Shown piece by piece: positions 4,276 through 44,134 of a stretch of 44,134 nucleotides of DNA. The translations under genes and the position numbers were made by a program. Location: the IMG/VR virus record IMGVR_UViG_3300024520_000145, positions 1-44,134 of that record, one strand, 5' to 3'. The notes beneath the pieces were generated by a model. It was not told the DNA's origin and did not search any database. It saw nothing but the letters and a program-made list of their open reading frames with translations. The DNA comes from a virus. Each line of letters starts with the position of its first letter. The stretch's first letter is position 1.

Positions 4276-4752
4276 TTATAAGCTTGCTAAGCAGTCTTCT
4301 AATGTTTCAAAACCATAGTGGTCGTCCATTGGAACAATAGTCTTGCGAGCTTCGTCTAGCTTAGCTAGTTCGCTATTGATGTCTTCAGGAGCAACTTCAC
4401 CTGCTGCAACTTGCTCAAGTAATAATTCTTTAGCTTTCTTGAACTCAGACTGTTGTTTAGTCCATTTACTTACACCAGCTTTACACATGCTGTTTAAGCC
4501 TGAAGCGCTTGATGCTTTCTTACCAAACTCAACAACTTCTGGAGACATCCATAAGTCGTGGTAGAAACAACGTACAGCAATTACGTTACCTGCTTCGTCG
4601 CGATGGAATGTAGTAGCTGCACCACCACCGCCACCTTGCTTAGCTGTTGTTAATGCTTCAATCTCATTATAAAGCTCTTGAGATAATTTACCGCCGATAT
4701 TAGCAGCTAAGATTGTCATGATTGGTTGGTATGCTTTTTTAATTGTCGCCAT
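4276..4752 (-). CDS. Zinc-ribbon-like early protein, paralog of the 8159-8617 gene
   Basis: A 158-residue protein sharing its whole architecture with the protein at 8159-8617. Both have an N-terminal TIKKAY helix, a RDE-G-V-A-C-Y-H-W block, the motif SGxNxMCKxGVSxWTKQQ and a C-terminal DCL motif. The C-x2-H ... CK pattern resembles the zinc ribbons next to many HNH nucleases (C-x2-C ... CK-x-C), but the fourth ligand is Gly here. A glycine run at residues 41-45 is unique to this copy. It has AAGGA 9 bases before the ATG, probably its own promoter, and a strong terminator after it, so it is a one-gene transcription unit within the operon. Role unknown; nucleic-acid binding is a guess. Confidence 0.82.
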   Translation of the reverse strand: MATIKKAYQPIMTILAANIGGKLSQELYNEIEALTTAKQGGGGGAATTFHRDEAGNVIAVRCFYHDLWMSPEVVEFGKKASSASGLNSMCKAGVSKWTKQQSEFKKAKELLLEQVAAGEVAPEDINSELAKLDEARKTIVPMDDHYGFETLEDCLASL

Positions 4753-4839: not shown

Positions 4840-5277
4840 TTATAATTCTGTACGCTTAACCGGAGATTGCTCTTTCCGGTACATAGCTTTAGTCTCTAGT
4901 AAGTAGTATGGTAAACCTGCAGTGTCATCTTTAGCTAATAGCTCTGCCTGGCGCTCTGCTTTACCCTCGTCCTGGGTTTTGTAGACCTGCCGCCCTTGAG
5001 CATCTAATACCATAAAGTACTTTACGTCTCTATGTAGCATCTCTTGCACTGGAACCAGGTAAGCTTCATCCATATAGCCTTGTTGCTCTCTGTGGTAGTT
5101 TCTAACACCTTCTAACGCATAGATTGAATAATCTTGCTTCTTGCCGTTGTTGTACAATATATGGACGCGTGAGGAGTCAATCCTGACTATCTGACCTATC
5201 CAACCGCATCTACCACCGTGTTTAGTGTACTTCACATGTACACCTAAATATATTGCTTCTAAATCTCTAGTGTTCAT
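4840..5277 (-). CDS. Hypothetical protein with SH3/KOW-like N-terminus
   Basis: A 145-residue protein. Residues ~12-50 (GVHVKYTKHGGRCGWIGQIV, then HILYNNGKKQDY) look like a small KOW/SH3-type beta barrel, a fold common in RNA- and ribosome-binding proteins. The C-terminal half is charged and helical. I placed the start at the ATG at 5277, because AGGAG precedes it by 7-8 bases and it forms a TAATG overlap with the pentapeptide gene. A longer frame to 5328 has no such site. Function not recognised. Confidence 0.72.
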   Translation of the reverse strand: MNTRDLEAIYLGVHVKYTKHGGRCGWIGQIVRIDSSRVHILYNNGKKQDYSIYALEGVRNYHREQQGYMDEAYLVPVQEMLHRDVKYFMVLDAQGRQVYKTQDEGKAERQAELLAKDDTAGLPYYLLETKAMYRKEQSPVKRTEL

Positions 5278-5882
5278 TACTCTGCTCCTAATATTTGCTT
5301 GAGTATAGACTTCCAAACTTTCCACCATGCTAACGCATTGCTATCCATATTACTAATTTCTTCATCAGTAAAGTTGAACCACTCTTCTTTAGAGTATTTT
5401 TTGCAATCTATTTGAATAATATCAGTAGTATAACTAATAGTATATGCGCCTGCTTGAATGGTTTTTAACTCTCTATTATTACCTATAGTGCCCCAAAGGT
5501 CAGCGCCCCAAAGGTCAGCTTCACGCAGGTTAGCTCTACGCAGGTCAGCTCTACGCAGGTTAGCTCCACGCAGGTCAGCGCCCCAAAGGTCAGCGCCCCA
5601 AAGGTCAGCTTCACGCAGGTTAGCTCCACTTAGGTCAGCTCCACGCAGGTCAGCTTCACGCAGGTAAGCTCCACGCAGGTTAGCTCCACGCAGGTCAGCT
5701 CCACGCAGGTCAGTTCTACGCAGGTCAGCTTCACGCAGGTCAGCTCTACGCAGGTCAGCGCCCCAAAGGTCAGCGCCCCAAAGGTCAGCTTCACGCAGGT
5801 CAGTTCTACGCAGGTCAGCTCGCTGCCCTTTTGTGTTGTCTTGTAACCATAGTTTATGTTGTTCTAATATAGTGTCTAGCAT
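5277..5882 (-). CDS. Pentapeptide-repeat protein
   Basis: A 201-residue protein. Residues 21-131 form 22 uninterrupted A(D/N)LxX pentapeptides, which fold as a right-handed quadrilateral beta-helix. The C-terminal ~60 residues form a separate domain ([16 protein letters not shown], later [10 protein letters not shown]) of a type seen after pentapeptide repeats in other phage proteins. Pentapeptide proteins such as MfpA and Qnr mimic B-form DNA and bind gyrase, so an effect on host topoisomerase or another DNA-binding defence protein is plausible here but not shown. AAGGAG lies 9 bases before the ATG. It overlaps both neighbours. Confidence 0.92.
5489..5824 (-). repeat. 15-bp tandem repeat array encoding pentapeptides
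   Basis: About 22 tandem 15-base units run through the pentapeptide gene, many identical or one base apart. The triplet of units encoding [15 protein letters not shown] recurs three times (units 2-4, 14-16, 20-22), which suggests duplication in blocks. Slippage or recombination could change copy number quickly, and short-read assembly of the copy number may be imperfect. Confidence 0.9.
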
Positions 5883-8158: not shown

Positions 8159-8617
8159 TTAGCTCAAGTATTCAAGACAATCTTTAGTATCAGTGAACCC
8201 AATAGTATCTTCACGAGGTAGTACTTTAGTTCGCTCAATCTCAATGTTATCTTGATGTTGTTTCAAGTCATTAACATCTAAAGTACCTTCACTTAATTGT
8301 TCTAATAAAGATTCTTTATTTAGTTTAGACTTACGTTGTTGTTTAGTCCAGTTACTTACACCTTCTTTACACATTGTATTATATCCACTAGAAGTAGACT
8401 TCTTAGCTCCATATTCACAATCGCTAATAGGTTCCCACTTCTTGTGGTAGTAACAAAATATTGCCACAACTTCACCATCTTCATCTCTTAGGACAGTTTC
8501 GCCATTATTCTTAGCTTCACACATAGCTTTAGCTTCTTCTAATATAGTAGAAACTTTCTTAGTGCTATTTAATTCTAAGAATTGGATTAGTTCAACGTAT
8601 GCTTTCTTAATAGTCAT
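8159..8617 (-). CDS. Zinc-ribbon-like early protein, paralog of the 4276-4752 gene
   Basis: A 152-residue protein colinear with the 4276-4752 product: TIKKAY start, RDEDGEVVAIFCYYHKKW, SGYNTMCKEGVSNWTKQQ, and a C-terminal DTKDCLEYL. The C-x2-H and MCK elements resemble an HNH-associated zinc ribbon that has lost its fourth ligand (Gly instead of Cys). AGAGAG lies about 7 bases before the ATG. It is the second gene of the unit enclosed by the long-range stem. Function unknown; the shared invariant blocks suggest nucleic-acid or protein binding through a metal-stabilized knuckle. Confidence 0.85.
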   Translation of the reverse strand: MTIKKAYVELIQFLELNSTKKVSTILEEAKAMCEAKNNGETVLRDEDGEVVAIFCYYHKKWEPISDCEYGAKKSTSSGYNTMCKEGVSNWTKQQRKSKLNKESLLEQLSEGTLDVNDLKQHQDNIEIERTKVLPREDTIGFTDTKDCLEYLS

Positions 8618-22405: not shown

Positions 22406-24236
22406 TATTAAAGACCTAAAAGACAGTTTTAAGATAGGTTATGAAGCATATGAGAGCTCTCGTAAAGAAGCTACTGAGATTTGGGACTTATACCACAACC
22501 GTCAGTACACCGAAGAGCAACTGCAAATCCTCGCAAACCGAGGACAACCTGCAGAAACTTTCAACGTTGTTAAATTATTTGCTCGTATGCTTGTTGGCTA
22601 CTATTCTACTATTGTTAACACTATCACTATCAGCCCTACTAACCCTAGAGACGTTGATGTAGCCTCAATACTTAACGATACAGTTAACAACATTCTGATT
22701 GAGAATCGCTTTGATATTGAAGGCGACGAGATTAAATTAGCTGGTTTAGTTTCAGGTTTACTTTGTGCTTACGAGAGTGTAGTTAAAACTGAGCAGCGTG
22801 ATGAGTTTGGTCGTTATGTTAACAAAGTTGTTACTCATCACGTACCTGATGGTGAATTAGTTTTAGACCCAATGAGTACACAAGATGATTACTCAGACGC
22901 GCGATTCTTACACCGCTTCAAGTGGACTACAGCTGACATAGTTAAACGTCGCTGGGGCAAGAAGAAGATGGAAGAACTTGATGCGTACTTCAATCACTTA
23001 AATGTCGAAGAAGCTGAGTTTGAATTTAACTATGGCGACTCTTACTCTGGGCACTACAGAGTTTTTGATAATTATCTTATAGTTCATGCTGTAATTGAGG
23101 ACGACACACAACGCCGCTGGTCAATCTTTTGGTGTGGAGATATAATCCTAGAGAAGCGTGAAATAACGTTCCAGAAAACTCGCTGGCCTTACCGTGTACA
23201 GAAATTACATAGTTCTGACCGTACAGAATATTATGGTATCTTTAGAGAAGTTAAAGAGTCTCAGAGAGCTTTAAACCAGGCTGTTCTTAAGATTCAGCTT
23301 ATGGTGAACTCAGAGAAAGCATATGTCGAGAAAAATGCAGTTGATAATATTGAGGACTTTACTACAAGCTTTAACCGTGTAAACGCAGTTATTGAAGTTA
23401 AGAGTTTAAAAGGTGTTCGTATAGAGCAACTTAGCAAAGATGTTCTTGACCAGTACACGATAATTGACCGTTCACTAGACCGTATACAGCGTGTACTAGG
23501 CATTAACGATAGCTTCCTGGGTATGGCGTTTGCTTCTGACTCTGGGCGTAAAGTTAAGTTACAACAAAACTCAGCGATAATGTCATTGCGTTATGTTACT
23601 GCTCGTATAGAATCGTTCTACCATAGTTTAGGTGAAGACCTTGCTTACTTAGCTCAGCAGTATTACCAAGCCAATCAGTTCTTAAGTATTGCTGATGAAG
23701 TTGTAGGTCAACGCTGGGTAGAAATTAACAAGCCAATGATGGAATTCTCTGGTCAAATGGGTGCAGATGGTCAACCTATAATGGTGCCAATTCTATTGCC
23801 TGAAACAGACCCTGCTAATGGTGAAGTTATCACTGACGAAGATGGTAACATCATCTTAGCTCCAGTTACTGAAGAAGGTTCGGACTTTAGTTTCCTAGAT
23901 TTTCAGATTCGCATAGAAGCTAACTCGTTTAATGATGAAGATGAGAAAGCTCAGTTGATGCTAGAGACTGTAATGAGTGGTCAAGTAGGTCAGATGGTTG
24001 CCCAGGTTAACCCTGCAGGATTCTTCCAGATGGCTAGCTTAAGCATGAAGTCTACTAGAACTAAGTACTCACCTAATATAGCTCAGATTTTAGACCAGAC
24101 TGCACAAATGTTATCTGGTGACCCTGCGGCTACGCAAGAAGCTAAGATGGGTGCAGGAGCTGGTGGAATGCAAGGTGGTAGCCCAAAGAGTAAAGCTTTG
24201 AAGTTACCACAAAATACAAATGAGGGAGTTGGATAA
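22395..24236 (+). CDS. Portal protein (P22-like)
   Basis: The dodecameric gate through which DNA enters and leaves the head, here 613 residues. Recognisable P22-type stretches are the N-terminal RKEATEIWDLYHNRQYTEEQ, the VPDGELVLDPMSTQDDYSDA region, and the stem region RVLGINDSFLGMAFASDSGR. AAGGGG lies 8 bases before the ATG. Its position after two ejection-protein genes, and more than 11 kb from terL, differs from the common terL-portal-scaffold-capsid order. Confidence 0.9.
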   Translation: MQANIKDLKDSFKIGYEAYESSRKEATEIWDLYHNRQYTEEQLQILANRGQPAETFNVVKLFARMLVGYYSTIVNTITISPTNPRDVDVASILNDTVNNILIENRFDIEGDEIKLAGLVSGLLCAYESVVKTEQRDEFGRYVNKVVTHHVPDGELVLDPMSTQDDYSDARFLHRFKWTTADIVKRRWGKKKMEELDAYFNHLNVEEAEFEFNYGDSYSGHYRVFDNYLIVHAVIEDDTQRRWSIFWCGDIILEKREITFQKTRWPYRVQKLHSSDRTEYYGIFREVKESQRALNQAVLKIQLMVNSEKAYVEKNAVDNIEDFTTSFNRVNAVIEVKSLKGVRIEQLSKDVLDQYTIIDRSLDRIQRVLGINDSFLGMAFASDSGRKVKLQQNSAIMSLRYVTARIESFYHSLGEDLAYLAQQYYQANQFLSIADEVVGQRWVEINKPMMEFSGQMGADGQPIMVPILLPETDPANGEVITDEDGNIILAPVTEEGSDFSFLDFQIRIEANSFNDEDEKAQLMLETVMSGQVGQMVAQVNPAGFFQMASLSMKSTRTKYSPNIAQILDQTAQMLSGDPAATQEAKMGAGAGGMQGGSPKSKALKLPQNTNEGVG

Positions 24237-27200
24237 TGCCAATTAAGTCTATCCTTAAAGCTGGTATTGATTTACTACCAGAAAAAGCTAAAGTTAAAGG
24301 TGCTTCGCTACCTAATGTACTTAAGAAGCAAGGTGTTAAAGACGAAGAGCTTAAGTTCGCAGGTTTAGAGATTAGACCTGAGAAGTCTTATACCAAAGCA
24401 GAGCTTCAAGAGCTTGAAGCAGGCCGTAAAGATGTATTTGGCAAAGAGCAGTCTGAGTCAGGCTACAACTTCATTAGCTTAGAAGCAGGCATCAACAACC
24501 CTACCTACAAAGAAAATGTCTATACATTTGCTGAAGGTAAACTACTAGATAAAGAAGTGTCATTTGTTAAAGCGCAAGTCGAAGAATATAACCAACTGCT
24601 CAAGCAAGAAAACAGTTGGGAAGGTAATATAGACGACTTATATGATAAGCAAGATGAAGTCATAGAAAAGTTACGGCAACGGTTTATTGAAGTAGTACCG
24701 AATGAAGTAGAAGCAGGTATGCACTGGTCTGATATTGCTGACGGTATTGTAAGTGGTGATATTACTGCTGGCTCTCGTTACACATCAGGACACTTCCAAG
24801 ACGTACCAAATTACTTGATGCATACTCGTACGTATGATGATACCATTGATGGTGTACCTACTCGCGTAGTCCAAGAGATTCAATCCGACCTCCACCAACA
24901 AGCCAGAGCACAAGGTGGTTATACTGGACAGATTGAAGTTGTGCAGCCTACTCCTGCTGAAATAGAAGCTTTTCAAGCATTTAATGACGGCTATACTGAT
25001 AGAGCAGATGAAGTAATGGAAGGTTTAGACCGCATAGGTTTTAGCCGTGCAGACATTGAAGATAACGATATAGGTGAGTTGGCTGCAGATGCTTTAGCAG
25101 GTGACTTACCAGGAGCGAAAGCAATCCCTGAGACACCTTACCAGAAGTCATGGTTAGCTAAAGGTATTGAGCGTGAGCTTGACTTAGCTATTAATGAAGG
25201 GCGTCAGCAGTTAGCTATACCAATCAAAGGTGCAGGCATCGAGAATCTCAAGCGTGCCCCAGGTGTTCAAGGCTGGTACGAAGGTAACGTAGCCAACACA
25301 GCCAAGAAGATAGCCAAACAAAACGGCATGGACTTTGAGTTAGTCGAGTCTGGTGGTACAACTTTTAAAGGCTTTACTGATTTTGACTATTGGGAAAACC
25401 AAGCAGATGAATTTCCTTCTACTTTTATAGAAGCGCTAGAAGAAACTTTTGGTTCTCACCCTACTAAGGATGTAACACTAGAACTGCGTAGCGCTATCGG
25501 TGAAGGCCACATGCAGCGCTTCGAGGATGAAGTCGAAAGACTTGCTGAAGGCACGCAGTACGCTATCATTAAACCTAAAGGTGAAGCTTACGTTGGCGAC
25601 TTAATGACTAAGGCAGAGTCAGACGAGCATATAGAGTTAGCTCTTGCTCCAATGAACAGAACAAGAAGCGAAGTTGAGAATACAAGATTAGCAGAATTAG
25701 AGAGTAAGAAAGCTAATCAAGGTAAAAAGATGTTTAAAGCTGAGAAGCCTAATCTTAAGCTCTACTCTAGTCCTGCAGCTGCTGTTGGTGCGGCATACGC
25801 TTCGTTAAAAGCTGGTGGTACTGATGATGATGTACGCTTTGAACTTAGCCAACAAGGTTATGACGCTGATGAAGCTGATTTTATTCTAAAAGAAACTAAG
25901 ATTTATCAAGACGGGTTAGCGCAAGGTTTTAGTGAGCAGGACATGCTAGCTGCGATGGCTGAAGATGAACATGAGATTGCAGATGTTAGTTCAACGCCAA
26001 TTACTACAGCACCTGAAAAGTCATTCTGGGAGCGCGCTGAAGACACTGCGAGATTAACAACAGGTAATACTAAGAAAGAAGCATATGCTACTGTCACTGG
26101 CGATGAGCAAATGTCGGCAGAGCAGCTAGTTTCACGCTTAAGAACTATCCAACCAAATATGAGCTCGATAACTACTCGTATGAGTGGCTATGCAGGCAAT
26201 GAAGTTGATTTTAACAAAGCGCGGCAAGCAGTGGAAGCTAGTGTACAGCGTATTGTAAACATGGCACAAGAACGTGGAACTAACTTAGTTTGGGTACCAC
26301 CTGAAGAGGTTGGACTGCTAGAGACTCTTGAAGCTTCTGGTGGTGGTAAGTTCATGGTTGAGACAGACCAGGGCAGAGTAGATGTTACTCCTGGCTTCTG
26401 GGAAAGTATGCGTGAAGAGCAAAGTGAAATAACGCTCGGTGTAGGTGGAGCATTCGCAGGTGCTAAAGTAGCAGCTCAATGGTCTAAGCATCCTGTAGTT
26501 GTTGCTGGTGGTTCTCTAATTGGTGCTATGATTGGTGCAAGTACTGGTACTGAAATTGATTACCTTAGAGACTCTGTTACTTTAGCTGAAGATATGTCAG
26601 CCGAGATTGCAGCTCACAAGGCTCTAACAGCAGGTGAAGCAAGCATTATCGGTGATTTAGTTGGTTATCCATTAGCTAAGTCTGCAGGCCTAATATGGGA
26701 TGGTGTTAAGAAAGCTAAGGATTTACTACTTGATGGAAATACTCAAGGAGCTTTAAAGTCTCTTAAGTCTACTATGTTTATTGATGAGGCTACAGCCAGT
26801 GAGATGGTTGAGAGGTTGAATAAGTCAGTACAAGCAGACCCTAAGAAAGCTAATGCTGCAGAGCAACAAATTAGAGCTACAGTATTAACAGAACCTGGTG
26901 GTGAAGCTATAGTACAACCTGCTGGTATACTAGACCCTCAAGCAGGTAGAGCTGTAGCAGAGTCTATAAAGCGCAGAACGACAGACGTACTATCTACTAC
27001 TGCAGAGCTTACAGATGAAAATGTAGCTAAGATGCTTACAGAAGACTTAGCTAACTATACTGCAGGCGTTAAGCAGTTTTATGGTGATGTTAAAGAGCAA
27101 GTATCACTATCGCCACGCATTAACAACTTCAGCTTTGATTATGATAAGTTAGCTATTAACCCAGTGCTTGAGACTTTAGGCAAAAATATAACTGACCCTA

Positions 27201-28330
27201 ATGTACTTGAGAAGTTTAGACTTCAAGCGCAGAAAGTACGAGACATGTCCGATAGTCGTACACTTACTGATTTGATTGAACTGCGTCAAATAGTTAATGA
27301 TTTTAAGTTCAACACGCGTATTAGTAAAGCTAAAGATTTTAAGCAGTTGAACAGCATCTTAGGTGATATCGATGGTGCAATAACGCAAGGTGCAAATGTA
27401 GTAATGGAGAATCCTAAGCAATGGCTTAGTAATTACTCTGAAGCTAAAATAAACTATGCTAAGATGAAAGGGTTAGAAAAGAATGTATTAGCTAAGTTAC
27501 TACGCCGTCCAGGCATTAACCAAGAGCTTGTAGTTAAGTCTTTAACTAAGTATATTAATGCTCTCGATGGTACATTTAACGATGTACTTAGTAAACTGCC
27601 TATGAAGCAGCGAGCCATGTCTGAAGGCACTGTAATAAATGCGTTAGCTGAGAAGTTCTCAGTTAAAGGTGAAGCTACGCACTTTCCATTACTAGCTGCA
27701 GAGTTGAATAAAGTTGTATTTACTACACCTGAAGCACGCAAAGCTAAAGCAGCACTTAATGAACTTGCACAAGTATTTAAAAATGATATACCTTTAGCTC
27801 AGGCTGCGGGTAATATCCAAATACCTAAATTCCAAAGTTTCTTAACTGCAGACCCTGTGATGAGAGCTAAATTCGAGTTTGCGACTAGTATGTTTAATGG
27901 TATCAAAAGTAGATTACCTACTCAGAAAGCAGGTAACATATCCTTAGTTACTAAAACAGCTAAGCTTCTTGAAGAACCTTTGAATGCTAAAGCAATGAAG
28001 GACTTCATGGAAGCCGCTGACGGCGATGTGAATCTTACTAAAATGGCTACAGACATGCAGAAGGAAGCCGCACGAGTAAAGTCTCAAGGTAAAGATGTAG
28101 GTTCAGCAAAAATTATAATGTATGGTGATGGCGCGCTCTTAAAGCCTAGTGGTAAAGGTAAAGAGCATAAGATACCATTCCACCGTATAGCTAGTTACGA
28201 TAAGGTCAAGGAGATAGCAAACAAATATGCTATTGACTTAAACGATAAGGTTCAATTAAATGGTGCTCTTAAAGATGAGGGTTATATGGCAGTTCAAGCA
28301 GGCTCAGACCAAGTACGGAGATTAAAATAA
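24236..28330 (+). CDS. Giant internal virion (DNA-ejection) protein
   Basis: At 1364 residues this is the longest protein in the window. Residues ~150-440 contain a module seen in large phage and prophage proteins: HFQDVPNYLMHTRTYDD, then RVVQEIQSDLHQQAR, then QKSWLAKGIERELDLAINEG. Residues ~735-775 form a glycine-zipper-like hydrophobic hairpin (GVGGAFAGAKVAA, then VVVAGGSLIGAMIGASTG) that could insert in the membrane. The rest is helical. It probably lengthens the ejection conduit. The function of the EIQSD module is unknown to me; no lytic transglycosylase motif is seen. Confidence 0.78.
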   Translation: MPIKSILKAGIDLLPEKAKVKGASLPNVLKKQGVKDEELKFAGLEIRPEKSYTKAELQELEAGRKDVFGKEQSESGYNFISLEAGINNPTYKENVYTFAEGKLLDKEVSFVKAQVEEYNQLLKQENSWEGNIDDLYDKQDEVIEKLRQRFIEVVPNEVEAGMHWSDIADGIVSGDITAGSRYTSGHFQDVPNYLMHTRTYDDTIDGVPTRVVQEIQSDLHQQARAQGGYTGQIEVVQPTPAEIEAFQAFNDGYTDRADEVMEGLDRIGFSRADIEDNDIGELAADALAGDLPGAKAIPETPYQKSWLAKGIERELDLAINEGRQQLAIPIKGAGIENLKRAPGVQGWYEGNVANTAKKIAKQNGMDFELVESGGTTFKGFTDFDYWENQADEFPSTFIEALEETFGSHPTKDVTLELRSAIGEGHMQRFEDEVERLAEGTQYAIIKPKGEAYVGDLMTKAESDEHIELALAPMNRTRSEVENTRLAELESKKANQGKKMFKAEKPNLKLYSSPAAAVGAAYASLKAGGTDDDVRFELSQQGYDADEADFILKETKIYQDGLAQGFSEQDMLAAMAEDEHEIADVSSTPITTAPEKSFWERAEDTARLTTGNTKKEAYATVTGDEQMSAEQLVSRLRTIQPNMSSITTRMSGYAGNEVDFNKARQAVEASVQRIVNMAQERGTNLVWVPPEEVGLLETLEASGGGKFMVETDQGRVDVTPGFWESMREEQSEITLGVGGAFAGAKVAAQWSKHPVVVAGGSLIGAMIGASTGTEIDYLRDSVTLAEDMSAEIAAHKALTAGEASIIGDLVGYPLAKSAGLIWDGVKKAKDLLLDGNTQGALKSLKSTMFIDEATASEMVERLNKSVQADPKKANAAEQQIRATVLTEPGGEAIVQPAGILDPQAGRAVAESIKRRTTDVLSTTAELTDENVAKMLTEDLANYTAGVKQFYGDVKEQVSLSPRINNFSFDYDKLAINPVLETLGKNITDPNVLEKFRLQAQKVRDMSDSRTLTDLIELRQIVNDFKFNTRISKAKDFKQLNSILGDIDGAITQGANVVMENPKQWLSNYSEAKINYAKMKGLEKNVLAKLLRRPGINQELVVKSLTKYINALDGTFNDVLSKLPMKQRAMSEGTVINALAEKFSVKGEATHFPLLAAELNKVVFTTPEARKAKAALNELAQVFKNDIPLAQAAGNIQIPKFQSFLTADPVMRAKFEFATSMFNGIKSRLPTQKAGNISLVTKTAKLLEEPLNAKAMKDFMEAADGDVNLTKMATDMQKEAARVKSQGKDVGSAKIIMYGDGALLKPSGKGKEHKIPFHRIASYDKVKEIANKYAIDLNDKVQLNGALKDEGYMAVQAGSDQVRRLK

Positions 28331-37827: not shown

Positions 37828-38368
37828 GGTCTAACTCCAGTAAAAATGTTAAGTTACACATAGCATGAGCTAAGTGTGGTAATCCCGTTTCAGGGTCAAG
37901 TTTCTCACCCATGCGATAAGCTTGGATGTGTCGTAATAAAGCGCCTTCGTATCGGCTTAAGTCAGTGCACTCACGCCAGTTATTAGGCTTATACTTGCGT
38001 GCACCAAATGTCAGTACTTCAGCAAGATACTCCATAGGCTTTGGTGGTATCAAGTCATAGCGAACTTTGTCACCATCAAACTTCATGAATGGTGTAACTA
38101 CTTTTACACCTTTAACGTACTCATTAAGTTGCTTAGCACATTCAGGACATGGTGGATGCGTAACTAAAGCATAATAGTCTTTATTGAGGTCTAAAGCTTC
38201 TTCACACATATTTCTACAAGCTGCTACTTCAGCATGAGTGCCATCATCTTCATTATAGCCTTCAGCTACTATTTTGTTTCTATCATCTATAATGATACAA
38301 CCTACTTTGCGCTGTTGTACATTTGACTTGGCTGCAACACCAAGCACATATTTAGTTAAGTCTTCCAC
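37814..38368 (-). CDS. Deaminase-like domain fused to a dATP/dGTP diphosphohydrolase-type domain
   Basis: A 184-residue two-domain protein. Residues 1-95 carry a zinc deaminase signature of the dCMP deaminase class: HAE at 45-47 and PCPEC at 73-77. Residues 96-178 match the DUF5664 (dATP/dGTP diphosphohydrolase N-terminal) type: KFDGDKVRYDLIPPKPMEYL, FGARKYKPNNWR, then ALLRHIQAYRMGEKLDPETG. Start is GTG with GGAGG 6 bases upstream. The fusion joins two nucleotide-pool enzymes in one chain; true substrates are unknown. The deaminase part is short for the family. Confidence 0.82.
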   Translation of the reverse strand: MEDLTKYVLGVAAKSNVQQRKVGCIIIDDRNKIVAEGYNEDDGTHAEVAACRNMCEEALDLNKDYYALVTHPPCPECAKQLNEYVKGVKVVTPFMKFDGDKVRYDLIPPKPMEYLAEVLTFGARKYKPNNWRECTDLSRYEGALLRHIQAYRMGEKLDPETGLPHLAHAMCNLTFLLELDHDNN

Positions 38369-38921
38369 GTGCTACCTCCAATAAGGCTTTAAGTTTAGGT
38401 TCTGGTGGTACAAAGAATGGTCCTTTGTCACCGTCGTTTGCTTTGATATTTGAAGCTGTCTTTTTGATTGACTTAGACGCATTACTAGCACAGACTATGT
38501 TTAAAGCCTCAACGCACTGTGCGTGGTCTAAACCAAGGCCAGTCATTTCAGCCATTGCGGTGCATATAATAAGTTGTAGTGACATAGCTAGTGGGTAGTC
38601 TTCATCGTACTCCATTACATCTAGGTACGTGCTTATATAGTAGCCTGGCCACAGCTCATTACAGTCTATTTGAGACTGCACTACTTGTATCGCCTGAGCT
38701 TCAGCGTCATACAAATTACCTTCATTTATATTAGCTTTCCATATAGCTCCCATAGCAACATATACAATGTCGCAAAGTCCATCAAGTTTGTCTACAGGAT
38801 TCTTAGCTTTTAGCCACTCTTGATACTCCTCACGTAACAAATTAATTGTTAACTCTAAATCAAATTTACGCTCATAGCGCTGTGCGTTCCAGTGGGTTAC
38901 TTTTTGATATACATTTTGCAT
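38352..38921 (-). CDS. MazG-like NTP pyrophosphohydrolase
   Basis: A 189-residue all-alpha pyrophosphatase. Metal-binding acidic residues appear as LREEYQEW (Glu31, Glu32, Glu35) and DKLDGLCD (Asp47, Asp51). The extra helical C-terminal region with KSIKKTASNIKANDGDKGPF is typical of the larger phage members. AAGGA lies 6 bases before the ATG. Placed between the thymidylate-synthase-fold gene and the deaminase fusion, it may remove an unwanted dNTP, with dCTP the natural guess. Confidence 0.8.
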   Translation of the reverse strand: MQNVYQKVTHWNAQRYERKFDLELTINLLREEYQEWLKAKNPVDKLDGLCDIVYVAMGAIWKANINEGNLYDAEAQAIQVVQSQIDCNELWPGYYISTYLDVMEYDEDYPLAMSLQLIICTAMAEMTGLGLDHAQCVEALNIVCASNASKSIKKTASNIKANDGDKGPFFVPPEPKLKALLEVARGRLN

Positions 38922-38923
38922 AG

Positions 38924-39733
38924 TTATTCCTTAAGTTTAAAGTCAATTGCTGATAGTGATTCACTATCTAAAAGTGCTATATCTGAGGGCTCAAATTTAC
39001 AGAAGTCTTTACCTCTAGGTGCATATAATTTGTACATAGGTGCATCAAAGCTGTACTGAGCTCTGAGCACACGGTATATGTACTCATACGCGCCAGTATA
39101 GTGTTCTTCATACACATGGCAGTCACCTAAGTCCATTTTAATCTTACCTAGTTTAAAACCAAACTCATTAGCTATCATAATAAGCCAAGCTGCAGCAAAT
39201 ATAATGTCAGAAGGTAAGCCAATAAGCATGTCTACTGAGCGTTGAGTCCATATCATACTTATAGTATTATTAGCTACGTAGAATTGATAGCTATAGTGAC
39301 AGCATGGTAAACTTAATGTGTCTAGCTTATGAGGTCTCCAGCTATTGATAATCATTCGTCTATCATCAGGATGGAACTTTAGCTTGTTTTTTAGGTCTGC
39401 TATCTGGTCGAAGCCTTCAAAGTCAAACCAAGAGTTACCATAGTCTACTGCAAGCTGTCCTGTGTCGTCAGCCCATAGTTTCCAGTAATTACAACCCCAC
39501 TTTTCGAAGTCTTCAACGCAAGTGGGTTTTCTTAACATTGCTGCAAGCTCTCCAAGTACACCGTTAGGGTACATCTTGCGACCTTGAATTAACGGGAAAG
39601 CTTGAGTCTGCATATCTACTTCAAGTGACATACCAAATAGTGATTTAGTTTCACCATTACGAGTTTGTTTCTTTGTACCATTAGCTAATATGTCTTGAAT
39701 TAGCTCTGCATATTCTACTTCGAATCTTTGCAT
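38924..39733 (-). CDS. dCMP hydroxymethylase-like member of the thymidylate synthase family
   Basis: A 269-residue enzyme of the thymidylate synthase fold. Catalytic Glu62 (GEL) and Cys145 (LPCCH) and the phosphate-binding QRS (164-166) are present. The Asn that selects uracil in thymidylate synthase (GLPFN) is Asp176 here (GLPSD). Asp at that position marks dCMP-using enzymes such as T4 gp42 (Glu60, Cys148, Asp179). So it should act on dCMP, making hydroxymethyl- or methyl-dCMP. Start set at ATG 39733 with AGAAGG upstream; the frame extends to a TTG at 39763. Substrate is inferred from one residue and close spacing. Confidence 0.8.
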   Translation of the reverse strand: MQRFEVEYAELIQDILANGTKKQTRNGETKSLFGMSLEVDMQTQAFPLIQGRKMYPNGVLGELAAMLRKPTCVEDFEKWGCNYWKLWADDTGQLAVDYGNSWFDFEGFDQIADLKNKLKFHPDDRRMIINSWRPHKLDTLSLPCCHYSYQFYVANNTISMIWTQRSVDMLIGLPSDIIFAAAWLIMIANEFGFKLGKIKMDLGDCHVYEEHYTGAYEYIYRVLRAQYSFDAPMYKLYAPRGKDFCKFEPSDIALLDSESLSAIDFKLKE

Positions 39734-41430
39734 AGCGCCATTCCTTCTAGTTGATAATTCCAAATGTTATCGACATCATCATTCTCAATGTCTCCCCAGT
39801 TAGTGCCTACCGCAACGTCTACAGGCATTGGTAAGTCTGTGATTTTAAACAGTTTACTCATTTCAAACCAAGCTTCTTGCATTGCTTCAGCTTTAATCTT
39901 AGCCATAGCTTTGTAGTGTACAGGGTCATCAGGACCTTCAGTAATAAAGCTGTCATGTATGAAATTACAAAGTATAAAGTCAGTACCGTGCTCTTCATTA
40001 TACGCAATCATGCGTGGATAGAAATAGTGCAAAGCTAATTTAGCTACTTCAGCGCCTGCACCTTGGTTTTCAATAGACAAAAAATCAGTCATCATTTTAG
40101 CTTTGTAATAACGACCTAAAGGTGTGTAATTTAATTTGCCTTTAGTCCACTTTGCAATACCTTCTTGTTGCCAACCGTAAATTTCTTTCCACAGCAGTCG
40201 CCACTTACGTCTATCTCGAGTAGCTTGCTGCTCAGAAATTAGTATATCTTGCTTCATCAGAATGCCTAGAAGCATAGTAATCCCACCGCCGTATAAAAGT
40301 AAGAAGTTATAAGTCTTAGATAATTGGCGGTCTGCTTTAGTCCAGTTCTTACCAAACACCATCTCAGCAGTATGAGCGTGTAAGTCTGCACCTTCACGGA
40401 ATAACTCCGCCATAACTGTGCAGTTAACAATAGCGCATATTGTCCTAAGCTCTAGTTGAGCGTAGTCAGCGTATATTAGAACTCTACCTGGAGGTGCCTG
40501 GAACATGCCTTTTAAAGCTCTTGGCAATTGCTGTAAGTTTTGGTCTTTAGAAGTCAAGCGACCTGACCTAGCAGAAGGTAAAAACTTACCGTATATGCGA
40601 TTGTCAGAGGTCTCGAACTTTTCAATGAATGAGTTCTGCTTCTTTAGCTTACGTACTTTACGAACATTTGCAGCTTTATCATTACCATCCATAGCCATAG
40701 TAGCTAAAGCTAAATCATCAGACTCAGTTGCATTAAGATAACTTCTAACTTGCTGCCATGAGTTAACATTAACTGGAACATTAGCTTCTTCAATAACTTG
40801 CAAGTTTTCTTTATGCTTATTGTAAAGGCCATCTTCAGTAGTTGGCATACCATTCCATTGGAAATCTAAGCAGTATTTAAGAGTAAGCATATCAAGCTTG
40901 TAACTGAACTCTTCAAGCTTACTTTTAACAGCTTCCCAGACTTGAGGCATGTAGTATACATCAGTAGCCGCATATAGCAATTGGTCCTCGGTAAGAAAGT
41001 TAGAATCCCATTTAGACTTCTGAAGTTTTTTCTTATCTAATAACTGACGCGCATAAGGGTCAAAGCCTAACACATATTGCATTGTCTCGTCTAAGCTAAA
41101 CTTCTCTTTATCAGGAAAAGCTAGTCTAGATAGTAAGAAAGTATCTTCAAATTTATTAGGAATCCAGCGAGTGCCAGTCTGTTGTTGAACTGTTGTTATA
41201 TCGTAGTGGGAGTTATGCCATGCTGTGGTGTACTTGTCTAGGAATGCAGTTATTGCGTATTCATTAGGCCAGTCTATGAGTAGGACGTGCTCAAGGTGCG
41301 GTTGATACGCTTGTAGTAGTCTTATCTTCTGATAAAACCCACAAGTTTCAGTATCGGAGAATAATACTTCTCCTTCGTTGAGTAGCACTTCTGCTTCTTG
41401 CAAAGTGCATCTTTTGAACGGTGTCTTCAT
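39715..41430 (-). CDS. DNA polymerase, family A, with 3'-5' exonuclease
   Basis: A 571-residue replicative polymerase. The proofreading domain shows DTE at 26-28, WHNSHYD at 71-77 and YAATDVYYM near 153-161. The polymerase has motif A DYAQLELR (Asp322), motif B RQLSKTYNFLLLYGGG (Arg368, Lys372) and motif C HDS (492-494), where most family members have HDE. It is shorter than T7 gp5 (704). It copies the genome together with the prim-pol/SF3 protein and SSB. It overlaps the next gene by 19 bases. Confidence 0.95.
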   Translation of the reverse strand: MKTPFKRCTLQEAEVLLNEGEVLFSDTETCGFYQKIRLLQAYQPHLEHVLLIDWPNEYAITAFLDKYTTAWHNSHYDITTVQQQTGTRWIPNKFEDTFLLSRLAFPDKEKFSLDETMQYVLGFDPYARQLLDKKKLQKSKWDSNFLTEDQLLYAATDVYYMPQVWEAVKSKLEEFSYKLDMLTLKYCLDFQWNGMPTTEDGLYNKHKENLQVIEEANVPVNVNSWQQVRSYLNATESDDLALATMAMDGNDKAANVRKVRKLKKQNSFIEKFETSDNRIYGKFLPSARSGRLTSKDQNLQQLPRALKGMFQAPPGRVLIYADYAQLELRTICAIVNCTVMAELFREGADLHAHTAEMVFGKNWTKADRQLSKTYNFLLLYGGGITMLLGILMKQDILISEQQATRDRRKWRLLWKEIYGWQQEGIAKWTKGKLNYTPLGRYYKAKMMTDFLSIENQGAGAEVAKLALHYFYPRMIAYNEEHGTDFILCNFIHDSFITEGPDDPVHYKAMAKIKAEAMQEAWFEMSKLFKITDLPMPVDVAVGTNWGDIENDDVDNIWNYQLEGMALCKDSK

Positions 41431-41531: not shown

Positions 41532-41882
41532 TTAAGCTTTATCTGCTCTATTTTGCGCTGCTTCGTTAGAATACTTAAAGCCTTCATAACGTTTACCAAG
41601 CTTTGCAATATTTGCATTTAAAGTTTCTTCTCTTGTTATATTAAGAGATTGACGCAAACCTTCAAGGTAGAACTCAATGTCACCAAGTTCTTCAACAACA
41701 TTGTCAATATCTATAGGCTTGTTGTAAATTGCTTGCTTTTTAACTGCATCAAGTAATTCACCAGCTTCACCAGAAACACCTACAGCCATATGCAAGTTAT
41801 GAGCCGTACTACTATTTAGCTCATCTACAATTAGTTGTCCATCTTTAGCTAATACTTTTACCATATCTGAATAATCAATCAT
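41532..41882 (-). CDS. MazG nucleotide pyrophosphohydrolase
   Basis: A 116-residue, single-domain MazG protein. The metal-binding motif is SGEAGELLDAV (Glu39, Glu42) followed by EELGDIEFYL (Glu64, Glu65, Asp68). MazG enzymes hydrolyse NTPs or dNTPs to monophosphates; phage copies are thought to alter host nucleotide pools, including noncanonical dNTPs. AAGGA lies 7 bases before the ATG. It lies 9 bases after the SSB gene, in the replication operon. Confidence 0.9.
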   Translation of the reverse strand: MIDYSDMVKVLAKDGQLIVDELNSSTAHNLHMAVGVSGEAGELLDAVKKQAIYNKPIDIDNVVEELGDIEFYLEGLRQSLNITREETLNANIAKLGKRYEGFKYSNEAAQNRADKA

Positions 41883-42937: not shown

Positions 42938-44134
42938 CAGTTTGTTACCACCTTGTTTGAAGCACGTGAGCAAGCCACGTACATTAGTTTAAGATATTGT
43001 TCAAAGCTGAAGTTTGCAGCGATGTAAATATCATCTGTGTCCAGAAATACGTCAGCATAAGTGCTTCCCTGGGATTTGTGCACGGTCATTGCATGAGCAA
43101 AGTCCAAGCATATTGCGCTACTGTTGAAGCTCAGAAAGTCTCTCCAAGCCTTAGCTCTTCTTTTAGCTAATGGGTGTGTAGGATTAGTTCTGCTCCAGCC
43201 CGCCGCTTTGTAGCCGACAAAAGAACCTTCGATGGCTCTGTTAGCTTCTGCTGCTTCGGCTATAAAGTTGTCTAAATGTGTTTTATAGTTATAGTGACCA
43301 AATAAGCAAGCAAAAGTGCTCTCTTCACCTTCATCATCCTCTACAACTGCAAACTGCACTATTCCACGACTAATTAAGTACTCTAGTGTCTTATACTTAG
43401 AACCTAACTCTATAGGGTCACCAAACGGCATAGCTACTATTGAAGGCGAGTGCTCCCACGCTTTAAACTTATACCTATGTTGTGTTGTAGGCGAAAATAA
43501 GATGTCGCCAGGTTCTGGTTCCATACGGCCCATTATGGACTCATTTAATTCTTCAACACGTTTATTCGTATAAGCTAAAATAACTTTGTCATCATGTTCT
43601 GTGAAGATATAATCTTGTACAATATCTCTATTTCTAATCAAACCTTTTAATGGTTCAGGCTTAGCACCCTCAATAAAGCTAACTAACTGTTCTAGTGCCT
43701 CACCTAAAGGGTTATCCTTAGCTTGCCTTTTAATTTCTTCAAGTAGCACTTTGTATTTACCACGCGGTTTTATTGCTTGAACGTCGTTAACTGGTGGTAG
43801 CTGATAAGGGTCTCCTATCCACACTACTCGCATACCACACTCATCTTGCTCTTCTCGTATGTCCATGAGGTCCTTTTCACCTATCATAGAATACTCGTCA
43901 ATAAATAAAACGCGGGTTTTTGCTGATTTTCCAACCTTTAGATTTTGTTGAACATATTTCTTATTAGTAGCGTCGTTATTAATCGTTGGACACTTTTTAA
44001 GAAACTTGTGTAAGGTCTGAATGTTTGTTCCTTCAGGCATTTTAGTGGTAAGTATACTACAAGCCTTATGAGTATAAGCGGTGACAACACAGTCAATATC
44101 AGCAGCAAGACAGTAAGCAATAAGCTCAGCCACA
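42937..44134 (-). CDS. Dda/RecD-like SF1 DNA helicase, C-terminal part
   Basis: The larger part of the helicase begun at 1-241; the first codons here duplicate that segment because of the terminal repeat. Visible motifs are motif II RVLFIDEYSM, motif III VVWIGDPYQLPPV, and the C-terminal motif VI YVACSRASNKVV with the upstream MTVHKSQGSTYADV motif V. These are the standard SF1B set for 5'-3' unwinding. The gene precedes the primase-polymerase in the joined map, so replication-fork work is likely. Confidence 0.9.
   Translation of the reverse strand, partial: VAELIAYCLAADIDCVVTAYTHKACSILTTKMPEGTNIQTLHKFLKKCPTINNDATNKKYVQQNLKVGKSAKTRVLFIDEYSMIGEKDLMDIREEQDECGMRVVWIGDPYQLPPVNDVQAIKPRGKYKVLLEEIKRQAKDNPLGEALEQLVSFIEGAKPEPLKGLIRNRDIVQDYIFTEHDDKVILAYTNKRVEELNESIMGRMEPEPGDILFSPTTQHRYKFKAWEHSPSIVAMPFGDPIELGSKYKTLEYLISRGIVQFAVVEDDEGEESTFACLFGHYNYKTHLDNFIAEAAEANRAIEGSFVGYKAAGWSRTNPTHPLAKRRAKAWRDFLSFNSSAICLDFAHAMTVHKSQGSTYADVFLDTDDIYIAANFSFEQYLKLMYVACSRASNKVVTN
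43983..44134. repeat. Right copy of 152-bp terminal direct repeat
   Basis: Matches 1-152 except G at 44109 for T at 127. Removing one copy gives a circular map of 43982 bases with the helicase in frame. See the left copy for the consequence. Confidence 0.93.

Follow-up and report, generated by a model that had tools for sequence, protein, structure and literature searches.

What does a thymidylate synthase (TS)-like enzyme make when the asparagine that selects uracil is replaced by aspartate, and what would its product mean for the DNA of the phage that encodes it? The question is raised by a minus-strand gene in IMG/VR record IMGVR_UViG_3300024520_000145 (the window, meaning the whole 44,134-nucleotide stretch analyzed). 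An earlier note, made from the sequence alone, had read this gene as a dCMP-type enzyme resembling the T4 gp42 hydroxymethylases and had predicted hydroxymethylated or methylated cytosine in the phage DNA.

The phage and its thymidylate synthase-like gene

The opening 152 bases of the record (1-152) match its closing 152 (43983-44134) at 99.3%, and the cut falls within a Dda helicase gene; the genome, about 43.98 kb, thus seems complete and circular. The earlier note had called modified cytosine unusual for a podovirus of ~44 kb. That remark has to be qualified, since podoviruses of 41-46 kb conserve the gene as a group: Edwardsiella KF-1, Vibrio VPMS1, Pseudoalteromonas PH1, Dickeya Amaethon, and dozens of uncultured podoviruses. 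In the literature searched, base modification was unreported for KF-1, VPMS1, PH1, Amaethon, or the uncultured members, and the KF-1/IW-1 genome paper contains nothing on the subject. Elsewhere, the window encodes two paralogues of the phrog_10459 family a few kilobases apart (4276-4752 and 8159-8617, both minus strand), a 201-aa pentapeptide-repeat protein (5277-5882, minus strand; PF00805, E = 7.6e-43), with a fold that mimics DNA in gyrase-protecting proteins, and a 1364-aa virion-region protein (24236-28330, plus strand) whose sole match, phrog_21759, covers the C-terminal two thirds.

The TS-like gene runs on the minus strand from an ATG at 39733 to a stop at 38924 and encodes 269 aa; the earlier coordinates were right and the strand, previously unstated, is now given. 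The sequence AGAAGGA lies upstream of this ATG, and a TTG start at 39763 was rejected because the ATG has the better ribosome-binding site. PF00303 spans the full length of the protein (E = 2.8e-59), with a domain score of 200.9 bits against a curated cut-off of 24.3, which places it in the TS superfamily. An AlphaFold2 model (mean pLDDT 96.7) was matched by Foldseek to solved thymidylate synthases over its whole length (rmsd 1.6-2.1 Å, E 2.7e-25).

Compared with E. coli ThyA, the enzyme has the same fold (rmsd about 1.7 Å), length, and tail position, ending at the alignment column of ThyA residue 264, and it retains every catalytic residue checked except that at position 177. The corresponding residues (ThyA in parentheses) are Glu62 (E58), Trp84 (W80), Tyr98 (Y94), Arg125/Arg126 (R126/R127), Leu142 (L143), Cys145 (C146), His146 (H147), Gln164 (Q165), Arg165 (R166), Asp168 (D169), His206 (H207), and Tyr208 (Y209). 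At the uracil-selecting position, the Asn177 expected of a thymidylate synthase is Asp176, equivalent to T4 Asp179. Further differences from ThyA are Ser175 for Phe176, Cys144 for Pro145, the clade motifs GCNYW and DYGN, and a C-terminus of LKE/LKA, unlike the usual TS ending. The alignment thus confirms Glu62, Cys145, QRS, and Asp176 as first described. The T4-like residue spacing also claimed is not diagnostic and was dropped as support for a T4-type enzyme, as Cys and position 177 lie 31 positions apart in E. coli ThyA and T4 alike. Judged by its sequence, the anatomy of the enzyme is that of a TS with a single Asn-to-Asp switch, and the natural protein looks like the engineered ThyA N177D mutant.

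Such a switch has precedents. Aspartate at the 177-equivalent position (hereafter Asp177) selects cytosine in T4 gp42, MilA, and BcmA (PMC6400193, PMC5175136), and the Asn-to-Asp substitution in TS changes the substrate from dUMP to dCMP, with formation of 5-methyl-dCMP (PMC8670742, citing Liu and Santi 1992; Hardy and Nalivaika 1992). TS homologues with Asp177 occur mostly on contigs with modified cytosine, hydroxymethylated ones included (PMC8670742).

Asp177 among viral relatives

The closest relatives of the enzyme are found in phages PH1 (55% identity), VPMS1 (52%), the Edwardsiella KF-1 group (51%), and Amaethon (49%), followed more distantly by ctXG1253 (43%), ct1fd225 (42%), and Kolga (36%), and all of them carry Asp at this position. 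A second TS gene in ct1fd225, annotated as DHFR-TS, was not found by the TS profile and was not used. We placed the enzyme among 177 distinct sequences in a tree computed without column 177, in which its clade, defined by a PCCH (CCH) motif, has support of 100/100. Within this set, 100 of the 102 viral CCH relatives have Asp177; the two with Asn (GLPSN, at L099:5992-6813 and L108:5989-6804) branch from within the clade (98/86 support) and read as natural reversions. On these counts and this topology, Asp176 is not a chance change. Given how few of the roughly 100 viral relatives lack Asp here, dCMP is very likely the substrate. Neither L099 nor L108 has a recognizable deaminase within 3.5 kb of its Asn177 gene.

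Xp12-type enzymes, at 23% identity, fall outside the CCH clade on a long branch of their own. In topology tests, a single clade of all Asp177 enzymes was not rejected (AU p = 0.40), and the CCH clade joined with the Xp12-type enzymes alone gave p = 0.078; an independent origin of Asp177 in the CCH clade is possible. About 36 further viral TS homologues in the set, on several branches, combine Asp177 with a PPCH motif (loci include L150, L156, L167, L169, L182, L184, L193, and L196). Their genes mostly have no pyrophosphatase neighbor, and they are other candidate dCMP enzymes by the same residue.

Gene neighborhood and palindrome content

The TS-like gene sits between a gene for a family A DNA polymerase with 3'-5' exonuclease (39715-41430, minus strand), whose 3' end runs 19 bases into the TS-like gene, and one for a 189-aa all-alpha NTP pyrophosphatase (38352-38921, minus strand), which follows after 2 bases. 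Next comes a dCMP-deaminase domain with HAE and PCxxC kept, fused to PF18909 (37814-38368, minus strand). With gaps of -19, +2, and -17, the four genes are translationally coupled. The deaminase domain is short, and PF18909 is a dATP/dGTP diphosphohydrolase N-terminal family; in ctXG1253 (L005) a smaller gene of its own encodes the deaminase. Upstream of the polymerase lies a gene for a MazG-like nucleotide pyrophosphohydrolase (41532-41882, minus strand). It was rejected as a conserved partner, the syntenic genes of relatives not being homologous, and the role of its product in the pathway is uncertain.

Among 50,697 phage records, the NTP pyrophosphatase turned up in just 11, each time with this type of TS. 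On viral contigs, counted without correction for relatedness, it lay within 3.5 kb of 49/56 Asp177 genes with the CCH motif, compared with 1/18 Asn177 genes with a PCH motif; a deaminase was near 42 of the same 56. Its model is all-helical (pLDDT 94.5), and the best PDB folds are dimeric phage dUTPases, matched with a probability of 0.98-1.00 but a weak E of 0.06-0.25. The core resembles the pyrophosphohydrolase that adjoins the TS homologue in the Xp12-type phage PaMx74, and the predicted activity of the protein is hydrolysis of dCTP (or dUTP) to its monophosphate. Homology to the T4 dCTPase gp56 was considered and set aside, as there was no sequence match. For the deaminase, a sequence comparison with PDB chains placed dCMP deaminases closest, with T4 1vq2 at the top. 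Both kinds of gene, NTP pyrophosphatase and dCMP deaminase, are among the neighbors reported for MetaGPA contigs with modified cytosine (PMC8670742). No DHFR was found in the record, and the ORFs scanned, which covered all but small ORFs and a few structural genes, held no kinase, glucosyltransferase, carbamoyltransferase, or TET-like gene; within that scope, the earlier note was right that a glucosyltransferase and a nucleotide kinase are absent.

Restriction palindromes are often depleted in phages whose DNA is unmodified. For 6-bp palindromes containing C/G, the observed/expected ratio was 0.54 in T7 and 0.58 in SP6, compared with 0.93 in the window, 0.90-0.98 in its relatives, 0.90 in T4, and 0.86-0.92 in Xp12-type phages. 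Over stretches of equal length, the median ratio was 0.94 for 32 contigs with an Asp177 CCH enzyme and 0.80 for 52 viral contigs encoding an Asn177 TS (p = 3e-7; GC-matched p = 3e-5), in a comparison set of our own choosing in which shared ancestry and hosts were uncontrolled. AT-only palindromes, which cytosine modification cannot hide, did not differ between the two groups (p = 0.19-0.95). The weaker avoidance of C/G palindromes fits modified DNA and is supportive only. As separate observations, avoidance looked slightly stronger in L099 and L108 (0.77-0.85), and Pseudomonas phage M6 (L012), which has modified T, very strongly avoids C/G-containing 6-bp palindromes (0.46). Taken with Asp177 and the operon, relaxed avoidance supports by inference the earlier prediction of a dCMP-type site and modified cytosine.

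Predicted reaction: methylation or hydroxymethylation of dCMP

The T4 structure paper proposed a signature for hydroxymethylation, namely Asp three residues before the catalytic Cys (Cys-3) and Ser two before the Tyr (Tyr-2), with the Asp activating water and the T4 D145N mutant dead (PMC6400193). In our alignment, both residues were found in 79/79 T4-type dCMP hydroxymethylases, whereas the M6-type dUMP hydroxymethylases (11/11) and SPO1 gp29 have the Asp and not the Ser, and in Xp12-type methylases Cys-3 is Asn or Gln. In the window enzyme, as in TS, the position of T4 Asp145 is taken by Leu (Leu142) and that of T4 Ser94 by Val (Val96), and neither an acidic residue nor Ser/Thr stands at these positions. 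It also keeps Trp84, His146, Gln164, and a tail of TS length. The dUMP hydroxymethylases SPO1 gp29 and Pseudomonas M6 gp58, though of the same superfamily, carry Asn177, Asp at Cys-3, Asn after the Cys, and Asn for Gln165, none of which the window enzyme has. Given Leu142, Val96, and the retained equivalents of His147 and Gln165 together with the tail, the predicted chemistry is reductive methylation, which, if dCMP is the substrate, we regard as likely. Of the two products first proposed, methyl is thus the better reading.

In the main alternative, the enzyme would act as a T4 gp42-type dCMP hydroxymethylase, in which water attacks the exocyclic methylene to give 5-hydroxymethyl-dCMP and hydroxymethylcytosine in DNA. 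The two proteins have in common the TS fold, the catalytic Glu and Cys, and Asp at the base-selecting position (Asp176, T4 Asp179); Asp177 homologues are enriched on cytosine-modified contigs, hydroxymethylated included (PMC8670742); the reaction needs no DHFR, and none is present; and the C-terminus is unlike that of TS. However, identity to gp42 is 21%, gp42 has lost His147, Gln165, and the TS-length tail, all kept here, and the ORFs scanned contained neither a glucosyltransferase nor any other hydroxymethyl-modifying enzyme. With the Asp/Ser signature also missing, a gp42-type assignment is not supported, and we consider it unlikely.

The gene-content parallel is with Xp12, not T4, by analogy with two Xp12-type phages, DoCa6 and PaMx74, that represent the kind in place of Xp12 itself. 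Xp12 DNA contains 5-methylcytosine in place of C (PMC7653180). PaMx74 keeps together genes for a polymerase, a pyrophosphohydrolase, an Asp177 TS homologue, a deaminase, and a DHFR; DoCa6 is similar, with the hydrolase adjoining the TS homologue annotated as HAD-type. The window likewise links DNA polymerase I, a nucleotide pyrophosphohydrolase, the TS homologue, and a dCMP deaminase, and its enzyme resembles the Xp12 type in having Asp177, no acidic residue at Cys-3, and no hydroxymethylation signature, with 5-methyl-dCMP as the predicted product. The differences are considerable. Beyond the low identity (about 23%) and the separate long branch, Xp12-type enzymes have Asn/Gln at Cys-3, Pro/Ser after the Cys, and Leu/Ile for Gln165, whereas the CCH clade has Leu, His, and Gln as in TS; the Xp12-type phages are ~60-kb siphoviruses with a DHFR, and the window is a 44-kb podovirus with none.

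The deaminase suggests a second alternative, in which the product of a dCMP methylase would be deaminated by its neighbor to dTMP, as a thymidylate route that bypasses dUMP and leaves little or no 5-methylcytosine in DNA. The deaminase lies two genes downstream of the TS-like gene, in overlapping genes, and recurs near 42/56 of the CCH Asp177 genes, and titles in the reference list of PMC11946847 report an Xp12 5-methyl-dCTP deaminase and a "new thymidylate biosynthesis". VPMS1, however, has the TS-like enzyme and the pyrophosphatase with a protein at the deaminase locus that is without deaminase motifs, and palindromes containing C are avoided less strongly, as would be expected of modified DNA, so that this route seems marginally less likely still than hydroxymethylation. 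An ordinary thymidylate synthase acting on dUMP and tolerating Asp177 would explain why all other catalytic TS residues are kept and why the best PDB and HMM matches are TS, but it is very improbable, as Asp177 is nearly universal across a large, diverse clade, this substitution turns the preference of TS toward dCMP (PMC8670742), and the clade-specific pyrophosphatase is rare beside Asn177 TS (1/18).

Building on the observed sequence, fold, conserved residues, operon, and weaker palindrome avoidance, we favor, with somewhat better than even confidence, a dCMP-specific methylase on a TS chassis whose 5-methyl-dCMP enters phage DNA as restriction camouflage; the substrate, product, dCTPase activity, kinase source, and virion 5-methylcytosine are what we infer from them. 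Cys145 would attack C6 of dCMP, while Asp176, in place of the uracil-selecting Asn, would protonate and orient the cytosine N3 and 4-amino group. Methylene-tetrahydrofolate, activated through Glu62, would donate the one-carbon unit. With the TS residues kept and no Asp/Ser pair to activate water, the exocyclic methylene would be reduced by folate hydride, giving 5-methyl-dCMP and dihydrofolate. The neighboring pyrophosphatase would probably hydrolyze dCTP, supplying dCMP and keeping unmodified C out of DNA, and the adjacent dCMP deaminase may balance dUMP/dTMP supply. Host kinases would convert 5-methyl-dCMP to 5-methyl-dCTP for incorporation by the phage polymerase. Points against a methylase include the following: reductive methylation consumes tetrahydrofolate and host DHFR would have to suffice, the ORFs scanned held no phage kinase for 5-methyl-dCMP, a nucleotide that is often rejected by kinases, and the C-terminus is not the usual TS ending. 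Overall, the enzyme is probably a dCMP methylase making 5-methyl-dCMP for the cytosine-modified DNA of ~41-46 kb podoviruses, and if it is a methylase, 5-methylcytosine in virion DNA is likely to very likely.

More broadly, these may form a widespread lineage of natural dCMP methylases that arose from a TS through essentially one Asn-to-Asp switch and left the rest of the TS active site intact, with 5-methylcytosine replacing cytosine in ~41-46 kb podoviruses and L099 and L108 presumably back to dUMP; we place this wider proposal just short of an even chance. Group members, some of them cultured, are all annotated merely as "thymidylate synthase", and residue 177 together with the residue at Cys-3 provides a sequence rule that sorts phage "thymidylate synthases" into four predicted activities. 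If the proposal is true, nature would have produced its own version of the engineered TS Asn-to-Asp mutant, for which the reverted members serve as controls, and full replacement of cytosine would extend past the Xp12 group and large phages like T4 to become a common trait of small podoviruses from marine and other aquatic habitats.
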